Below, one piece after another: positions 27,202-46,134 of a stretch of DNA of 64,000 nt (position 1 is its first letter; every line of letters begins with the position of its first letter). This DNA is from Geothrix fuzhouensis (GTDB lineage: Bacteria > Acidobacteriota > Holophagae > Holophagales > Holophagaceae): positions 930,001-994,000 of the forward strand of contig NZ_JANHMQ010000001.1 of NCBI RefSeq assembly GCF_024609325.1, in the 5' to 3' direction. The notes beneath the pieces were generated by a model, which had not been told where the DNA came from, did not search any database, and saw nothing but the letters and a program-made list of their open reading frames with translations. The position numbers and the translations under genes are program-made.

Positions 27202-27473
27202 AGGGCCTGCTTTCAAAGTGGATGCGAGCCGCGACGCCGTCCAGCCGCGCGCATGGCCAGGCGGCGACCGAAGGGCGATGCGGGACATCGTTCGAGGTCG
27301 TCAACGCAGCCAGGGGTGCGGCTGGGCGACGTCGCGGAGGGCAAGGGGCGGCGCCCGGCGCGATGCCGCGTCAAGCTCCTCGTCGATAGTGCCGCTATCG
27401 CTTTCGTCGCTTTCCTTGCCTCGCTTGGGCGGCGCCCCTTGCGCGGCCACACCCCACTTTGAAAGCAGGCCCT
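27202..27473. mobile_element. 270-bp palindromic repeat element, copy 1
   Basis: The ends are perfect 20-bp inverted repeats (AGGGCCTGCTTTCAAAGTGG at the left, its complement at the right). Inside, GCAAGGGGCGGCGCCC faces GGGCGGCGCCCCTTGC with one mismatch. Within that lies the perfect hairpin CGATAG-TGCCG-CTATCG, and the left half has CGATG/CATCG and GCAGCC/GGCTG hairpins. The interior is about 97 percent identical to copy 2 at 44588-44858. It fills the gap between the divergent C45 hydrolase and pseudouridine synthase genes. No target-site duplication is evident. It encodes no transposase; a MITE-like non-autonomous element or a mobile structured-RNA element are the alternatives. Confidence 0.8.
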
Positions 27474-44587: not shown

Positions 44588-44858
44588 GGGTCTGTTTTCA
44601 AAGTGGATGCGAGCCGCGACGTCGTCCAGCCGCGCGCATGGCCAGGCGGCGACCGAAGGGCGATGCGGGACATCGTTCGAGGTCGCCAACGCAGCCAGGG
44701 GTGCGGCTGGGCGACGTCCCGGAGGGCAAGGGGCGGCGCCCGGCGCGATGCTGCGTCAAGCTCCTCGTCGATAGTGCCGCTATCGCTTTCGTCGCTTTCC
44801 TGGCTTCGCTTGGGCGGCGCCCCTTGCGCGGCCACACCCCACTTTGAAAACAGACCCT
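44588..44858. mobile_element. 270-bp palindromic repeat element, copy 2
   Basis: The ends are perfect 19-bp inverted repeats (GGGTCTGTTTTCAAAGTGG at the left). It is aligned base for base with copy 1 at 27202-27473; internal differences are about six single bases, and the same nested hairpins are kept. Relative to copy 1, each terminal arm has changed at two places (GCC to GTC, GCT to GTT, with matching changes in the other arm), so base pairing is conserved. The element sits between the minus-strand regulator gene and waaA. Its right end continues into the TAG stop codon of waaA. No target duplication and no transposase gene are seen. Confidence 0.8.
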
Positions 44859-46134
44859 AGAAGGTCGCCGGCGCGGCGGGAACCTCCGCCCGAAGGGTCA
44901 GGTATGGTGCAAGCAGGCTGAGGGTGCGGTCGAGGGTGCCCTGAAGGGATGCGGGCAGCGGCGCCTGCCCGCTAGGTCGCAGCGGCGCGGAAGCCAGGGC
45001 TTCTATCAGGGCCCTGGCAAGATCAGGCGCCTCGACCACCCGGAGCATGCCGACCTCCCGAAGGGGCGGCACCAGGTCCTCGAAATTGGTGAAGCCAGGT
45101 CCGACGAGGGCTGGAACACCCACACGGACGGGTTCCAGCGGGTTGTGCCCGCCGTTCGCGGCCCAGCCCCCGGCCACCAGGGCCAGGGTGCCTTCGGCGT
45201 AGGCGGCGGAAAGCTCCCCGAGCGTGTCCAGGAGCAGCACCTCCACCTCCGACCACCCGTCGGCCTCTGGCCAAGGCTCCGAGGCTCGGCGGAAGGCCAG
45301 GCCCTGGTCCGCCATCAGACCCGCCACCGCCTCGAAGCGTCGAGGCTGGCGTGGGGCCAGGATGAGCCGCAAGCCAGGAATCTGCATCCGCGCCGCCCGC
45401 CAAGCCTGGATCACCAGATCTTCTTCGCCCGCCACGGTATTGCCTGCCACCACCACGGGGAAGGTGGACCAGGCTTCGCGCAGCGCGTCCCAGCCCCCAT
45501 GGAGGGGGCGTGGCGGGGGCAGATCGGCCTTGAGGTTGCCGCCGAGGTGCACGTCCGGAGCTCCGAGACGTTGGAAGGCCTCAGCGCTGGCCTCGTCCCG
45601 GGCCGCCACCAGACTGAGCCGCGAGGCCGCCCGGCGCAGCCAGGGGCCACCCCGCTGGAGAGACCGTTCCGTGAGCCGTCCGTTCACAATGATCCGGGGA
45701 ATGCCGCGGTCCTCGAGCGCCTGGAGCAGACCGGGCCAAAGTTCAGTCTCCAGGGCGAGGAATACGCTTGGCGCATGGCGGAGGAAAGGTTCCAGGCCCG
45801 CCGGGTCATCCAGGGGAAAGGCCCCGCCGCTGATCAACTCCGTTCCGGCGTCCCAGCCCGGCAGCCGCTGGGCCAGCAGATCCAGCCCCGCGGGCGTACC
45901 CGTGCTGAGATGGACACGGTGGCCCGCGTCGCGGAGACGCGCCACCAGACCATCCGCCAGCAGCAGTTCACCCACGCTCACCGCGTGCAGCCAGATCCAG
46001 CGGCCCGCGGGCAGGTCTGGCACCTCGGCCTCCAGCCTGAGTCGCCAGGCCTCTGGCAGACCCCGGGCGCAGGCCCGCGCCACTGCCCCCACCAACGAGA
46101 CCGTCGCCCAGTAGCTGAAGTCGAGGAAATCCAC
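44857..46134 (-). CDS. waaA: 3-deoxy-D-manno-octulosonic acid transferase
   Basis: A 425-residue GT30 enzyme that attaches KDO to lipid A precursors, the start of LPS inner-core assembly at the inner membrane. WIWLHAVSVGELLLADGLV is the acceptor-side motif of the N-terminal domain with the catalytic Glu. VHLSTGTPAGLDLL follows, FLALETELWPGLLQALEDRGIPRIIVNGRLTERS is the hallmark, and VVVAGNTVAGEEDLVIQAWRAAR opens the donor domain. GGWAANGGHNPLEPVRVGVPALVGPGFTNFEDLV closes it with the conserved GHNPLEP. The start is a GTG at 46134. Its TAG stop codon is formed at the end of the palindromic element. Confidence 0.95.
   Translation of the reverse strand: MDFLDFSYWATVSLVGAVARACARGLPEAWRLRLEAEVPDLPAGRWIWLHAVSVGELLLADGLVARLRDAGHRVHLSTGTPAGLDLLAQRLPGWDAGTELISGGAFPLDDPAGLEPFLRHAPSVFLALETELWPGLLQALEDRGIPRIIVNGRLTERSLQRGGPWLRRAASRLSLVAARDEASAEAFQRLGAPDVHLGGNLKADLPPPRPLHGGWDALREAWSTFPVVVAGNTVAGEEDLVIQAWRAARMQIPGLRLILAPRQPRRFEAVAGLMADQGLAFRRASEPWPEADGWSEVEVLLLDTLGELSAAYAEGTLALVAGGWAANGGHNPLEPVRVGVPALVGPGFTNFEDLVPPLREVGMLRVVEAPDLARALIEALASAPLRPSGQAPLPASLQGTLDRTLSLLAPYLTLRAEVPAAPATF

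Follow-up and report, generated by a model that had tools for sequence, protein, structure and literature searches.

A 270-bp element that occurs twice in the analysed stretch of Geothrix fuzhouensis DNA (64 kb; hereafter the window) is very probably a type II MITE composed of inverted homologous arms of ~100 nt and IS-type TIRs, with a conserved body, exchangeable ends, and several IS as carriers. The sequence-only reading that preceded this analysis had described two near-identical copies with nested inverted repeats, and the two copies, which are 96% identical, with their perfect 19–20 bp ends, inner stems, and CGATAG-TGCCG-CTATCG hairpin were all recovered; it had missed that the arms are homologous and inverted, that several unrelated end types exist, and that the element is present in another phylum.

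Copy 1 occupies positions 27203–27472 (plus strand), as delimited by BLAST and by the relatives G025, G007, and G015, in which the region lacks the element; its flanks are AA and TG, with no intact TA duplication. Its left TIR, GGGCCTGCTTTCAAAGTGG (27203–27221, plus strand), is of a type common to IS5-family IS of genome G020, and the right TIR (27454–27472, minus strand) repeats it perfectly in inverted orientation. Arm P3 (27233–27332, plus strand; covariance model R1, E = 2e-21, and predicted folds) consists of a stem, internal loops, and the apical hairpin GGCGATG-CGGGA-CATCGTT (27274–27292), and arm P4, its inverted homologue (27348–27436, minus strand), carries the CGATAG-TGCCG-CTATCG apical hairpin at 27384–27400 and is matched by a P3-only model on the minus strand (E = 7.6e-4). 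Copy 2 (44588–44857, plus strand) was delimited by BLAST and by the empty site GGATAC-TAGAAGG in G015 and G007, and comprises the left TIR GGGTCTGTTTTCAAAGTGG (44588–44606, plus strand), the right TIR (44839–44857, minus strand), arm P3 (44618–44717, plus strand; model R1, E = 1.4e-21), and its inverted homologue P4 (44733–44821, minus strand; model R1 on the minus strand, E = 8e-4). Since a P3-only model matches P4 of either copy on the minus strand, the element is an inverted pair of homologous arms; the body is a quasi-palindrome, in which two inverted homologous arms of ~100 nt are closed by the TIRs. A covariance-model scan of the whole window gave no third copy.

The earlier description of the element as highly structured was borne out by folding copy 1 against dinucleotide shuffles (z = −8.4 as DNA; −8.7 and −7.4 as RNA for the two strands), none of 200 shuffles being as stable. 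The minimum-energy shape is a Y: after a TIR stem come two long arms (~100 nt and ~90 nt), both of which have internal loops and end in an apical hairpin whose loop has 5 nt. The genes on either side of copy 1 are divergent and of Phospholipase B-like and pseudouridine synthase type, the pseudouridine synthase start codon being 25 bp away; a GCCTC-GCTTTTT-GAGGC hairpin adjoins this copy (locus L001; empty-site relatives L280 and L281). The insertion point of copy 2 is the stop codon of a Kdo-transferase-like gene (44857–46134, minus strand), and the TAG stop is preserved despite the insertion exactly there (44855–44860); with a target of the CTAG type, insertions that preserve a stop codon would be common.

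Structural variants were observed as well. In L116 (335 bp, minus strand), L123:1480-1814, and G020:C1:3397832-3398168, the small hairpin at the junction of the arms gives way to ~72 bp with two further hairpins, by which the Y becomes a multi-branched junction. An optional hairpin module of ~42 bp, CAGATATCAGTTTGTCTCGCG...GATACCGAGAAGG, is found at the identical place in arm P3 of L006, L009, L020, and L111, which are otherwise different copies, and L020 and L021 have a further module in common in arm P4.

Distribution and mobility of the element

BLAST with copy 1 revealed eight full copies of its subfamily in its own genome (82–100% identity), i.e., more than the two of the window, and one internally deleted copy of 68 bp (L018, G000:C4:181101-181168), which, as do the remnants L240 (158 bp) and L318 (52 bp), keeps both ends. 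More distant relatives in this genome, with 71–79% identity to copy 1 over part of the length, are complete elements, mostly of 268–271 bp and some longer because of inserted modules, with the same body as copy 1 and other TIRs, including GAGTGTGTTTTAGAATTC, GAGTGCCTAACAAAACCC, and GAGCTCATATC. The total is ~22 copies, based on 22 matches to the P3-arm covariance model; the number lies at the low end of the earlier guess of dozens to hundreds. The same model detected the element in 36 of the 42 genomes of the genus, with 1 to 55 matches each, and gave no arm match in the other six; copy number varies widely between genomes (G032, G014, and others).

A DNA search of 23 genomes outside the genus gave no match. 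A search of public contigs with the apical-hairpin pattern yielded, among the matches listed, Geothrix, Holophagaceae, Thalassospira species, and a proteobacterial MAG, and the elements in Thalassospira and the MAG are 264–274 bp long, with the Y-fold as in Geothrix, unrelated TIRs, and mostly TA flanks; one pattern match in Pseudomonadota (G120/L249) was set aside as chance owing to the absence of TIRs. Furthermore, 40 of 385 Alphaproteobacteria (about 10%) have arm matches by covariance model, often at least 10 per genome and commonly paired plus/minus with 5–8 bp between them. Complete elements were delimited at 21 of 30 alphaproteobacterial loci, with lengths of 263–280 bp (usually 263–274 bp, with one exception of 313 bp), the fold seen in Geothrix, and many different TIRs, including GAGCAGTTTCC, GCCCGCATTTCTCACC, and ATACCAAGG. 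In the alphaproteobacterial L360, the apical hairpin unit GATGCGGCGGCATCC stands in tandem, giving 313 bp. No match was found in the viral contigs searched; a plasmid collection gave one partial match, on a Thalassospira replicon, with a Thalassospira element as query and none with another alphaproteobacterial copy.

Mobility was assessed by searching the joined flanks of 20 own-genome copies in four relatives. At 17 of the 20 sites, both window copies included, the element is absent from at least one relative, and base-level alignment showed precise insertion into targets that are single-copy in the empty orthologues. Copies with GGG-type ends add 2 bp, TA (clean in L003, L005, and L008, with the target CTAG), and those with GAG-type ends add 3 bp (TTA in L019, TGA in L014, and also in L020 and L010), so that the length of the duplication depends on the end type. 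TA on both sides of the GGG type could partly reflect an insertion preference, an objection that the clean empty sites answer for a few copies. Insertion of copy 2 at GGATAC-TAGAAGG added 2 bp, and the TA on its left is mutated; relatives lack copy 1 at its site, where the alignment is less clean. With their sites empty in related genomes, both window copies are mobile. According to a rough gene call, the copies sit between genes in all arrangements, with no orientation bias relative to their neighbors. A transposase gene would not fit into the usual length of 263–274 bp, and the short size, multiple copies, TIRs of 14–20 bp, target duplications, and empty sites are those of type II MITEs. The proposal of a MITE mobilised in trans, and the empty-site orthologues expected of it, are hence supported by the precise empty sites, the duplications of 2–3 bp, and the matching IS ends in sister genomes described below.

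Covariation and pairing in the arms

Within the arms, 130 cells are changed on both sides of a pair versus 38 in shuffled data, a signal that collapses with slid partners, and at least two Watson–Crick types occur at 47 of 60 positions of a strand-neutral pair set. Such strong covariation, together with stable RNA folds and two G.U pairs of the apical hairpin conserved on one strand, is also what would be seen in a structured non-coding RNA gene, or a structured element of an mRNA, that travels as cargo flanked by IS ends and is retained for a host function; the sequence-only reading, too, had offered a mobile structured RNA. One-sided stem intermediates in the strand-neutral set are G.T at 35 positions and A.C at 32, and summed over regions they amount to 59 G.U versus 81 A.C cells. 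An RNA function suggested by a plus-strand alifold (387 GT versus 95 AC) was rejected, as the asymmetry is gone in the strand-neutral set, the count having been biased by the choice of structure. Near-equal G.T and A.C without strand preference argues for pairing in DNA, not in one transcript. Against an RNA with a host function also stand the mixed orientation relative to genes, the difference in presence or absence at most sites, the six of 42 genus genomes without an arm match, and the absence of a match in Rfam 15 at gathering score, and this explanation is considered highly improbable. Relaxed Rfam thresholds returned only chance-level miRNA models. The two one-strand G.U pairs, which are accompanied in the apical part by invariant unpaired bases, fit a single-stranded or RNA role of that part.

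End types, matching IS, and the body tree

One body is associated with at least five TIR types in Geothrix. For four of them, sister genomes hold IS of the IS5 or IS1182 family whose ends match over 14–16 bp. The IS5-family matches are an IS of 861 bp in G020 (TA-GGGCCTGTTTTCAAAGT; 2 mismatches over both ends) and one of 869 bp in G028 (GAGTGCCTAACAATAC; 4 mismatches); those of the IS1182 family are an IS of 1537 bp in G034 (GGAGCCTGTCCAAGTA; 14/14 at both ends versus elements L049 and L050) and one of 1618 bp in G028 (GAGCCTGTCGCACAAC; close to L097 and L108, with 4 mismatches). The transposase of several matching IS is split over two frames, and their activity is therefore only putative. Transposase loci with ends at ≤4 mismatches number 7 of 45 (L266 among them) versus a mean of 0.55 with shuffled TIRs, and those at ≤2 mismatches number 3 versus 0; one of 20 TIR shuffles reached 8 loci, owing to the near-identical IS copies in G020. 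Similarity to the IS stops at the TIR, with nothing seen beyond it. A match to a described IS end had been named in advance as a refutation; the ends do match IS, but since only the TIRs do so, the match counts as evidence for mobility instead.

The own genome has no match to PF01609 (DDE_Tnp_1) or PF13358 (DDE_3), and TIR1, the GGG-type end, is found there at element ends only; as the genome thus lacks a transposase for these ends, mobilization in trans is inferred. IS630 (PF13358) was discarded as the TA-duplicating partner, since it is absent from most genus genomes. These observations bear on a rival explanation, in which a dedicated structure-reading enzyme, of HUH/tyrosine or other type, moves the folded arms, the ends need only pair, and their likeness to IS is convergent or recombined. 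Conservation of the arms, the apical loops, and the unpaired AAGG/AC bases far exceeds that of the ends, even between phyla, end types outnumber the IS partners found, and copies are present in genomes without the DDE families searched, all of which such an enzyme would accommodate; by contrast, duplications of 2 versus 3 bp according to end type fit different DDE transposases, and exact matches of 14–16 bp to IS of two families are not expected from it. On balance, a structure-reading enzyme is unlikely, and transposition by IS enzymes through the ends is preferred.

Left and right ends agree at 95.8% within the 91 copies compared, versus 53.5% for ends of different copies, and 61 different left ends occur among these copies. 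On a body tree of the 91 copies, from which the ends were left out, end types are strongly clustered (10 changes versus 43 in shuffles). IS1182-type ends (D) are nested inside the IS5-GAG clade (C; support 100/86), and others (E) stand beside the TTTTAGAATTC clade (B; support 98/95); such nesting among bodies with IS5-type or other ends indicates that a body lineage changed ends between IS families, an event that, on this tree, occurred within the genus at least twice. Independent origins of ordinary MITEs through internal deletion of several IS, with convergent bodies, would account for the separate main clade of each end type. However, resemblance to the IS was seen in the TIRs alone, a 220-bp alignable body with invariant motifs is common to all end types, and a single covariance model recovers all of them, and separate origins, already contradicted by the shared alignment, have next to no credibility.

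Filled sites common to two genomes allowed 11 comparisons, eight in the same orientation and three inverted (L001/L074, L020/L315, and L021/L316). At the eight same-orientation sites, end changes are all one-sided (10 vs 0) and arm changes mostly so; changes at both ends occur only in the three inverted pairs. Template switching is known to homogenize inverted repeats and to invert the sequence between them (PMC8604942); template switching, a second insertion, or replacement would each explain the inverted sites. L001 and L074 have identical, non-TA flanks, which favours one ancestral insertion, and the nearest relative of L001 is copy 2 of its own genome rather than L074. In-place homogenization of the ends by template switching was not established, as the same-orientation sites changed on one side only, i.e., no end-to-end copying in place was seen. 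Decay after insertion goes uncorrected, which suggests maintenance of pairing in the mobile cycle and not at rest.

Known systems and biological meaning

Under the preferred reading, different IS transposases would cut and paste the element in trans via its ends, and lineages that gain new matching ends would keep spreading after the old IS partner is lost. With less certainty, DNA pairing (as a cruciform or a folded single strand of either strand) may be kept because it aids the mobile cycle; for example, one end could template the other, so that new ends are made to match. A tentative extension is a "multi-vehicle" class, an inverted hairpin-arm dimer of Acidobacteriota and Alphaproteobacteria that repeatedly swaps both ends to those of active IS, with the fold matching the ends; if so, the fold would make the parasite independent of any one transposase.

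Type II MITEs of bacteria include QMITE2, Chunjie, and MITECca01 (reviewed in PMC10969869). The present element resembles them in being short, non-coding, and mostly intergenic, with TIRs, target duplications, and IS likeness at the ends alone; described type II MITEs are, as far as found, tied to one parental IS type, whereas this element is associated with several IS of two families, two duplication lengths, and two phyla. The Correia elements of Neisseria are likewise non-coding MITEs with strong structure, although with a different body, and are not known to change IS family at their ends. Inversion of Correia elements has been reported (PMC10969869). TIMEs are non-autonomous Tn3-derived miniature elements of 262 bp with conserved size and structured transcripts that are moved in trans (PMC4133298); their ends are always of Tn3 type and their body is less conserved than the ends, the opposite of the situation here.

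GTAG and CGTC REPs and REPINs comprise inverted dimers of hairpin units, and for the CGTC type, found mainly in Alphaproteobacteria, the authors suggested possible mobilization by a wide range of transposases (PMC3733652). A CGTC REP is 20–40 bp long, with an unpaired CGTC tag by an 8–9 bp stem that starts with AT and a loop of 4–5 nt (PMC3733652). The element shares the inverted dimer of hairpin units with REPINs and differs in having units of ~100 nt, closure by TIRs, and target duplications. Membership of the CGTC REPs or REPINs was rejected because of this unit size and because CGTC-like bases are not followed by the required stem. That of the GTAG REPs, which have GTAG-tagged hairpin ends and are mobilized by RAYT without target duplication, was rejected given the G(A/G)G ends within TIRs and the duplications of 2–3 bp. 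IS1272, of the IS1182 family, is an autonomous IS with stem-loop-replacing transposition and no target duplication (PMC5678879). Its transposase reads inverted-repeat structures, and some copies of the element have IS1182-type ends; unlike IS1272, the element is non-autonomous and has target duplications.

By every testable feature, the element is a bona fide MITE, unusual in its conserved body and exchangeable ends; the literature searched contained no paper on repeats in Geothrix or on a single MITE body that carries the ends of several IS. The element represents a new repeat family for annotation, present in 36 of the 42 genomes of the genus and ~10% of the Alphaproteobacteria sampled, and a marker of earlier IS activity where the IS itself has been lost from a genome. 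A stable body with the ends of several IS families suggests that one parasite can ride many unrelated transposases, which raises the testable question of how both ends are exchanged jointly and what part the fold plays. MITEs are usually viewed as leftovers of one IS, dying with it; a body that outlives its ends would be another strategy, i.e., carrier switching between transposase families.
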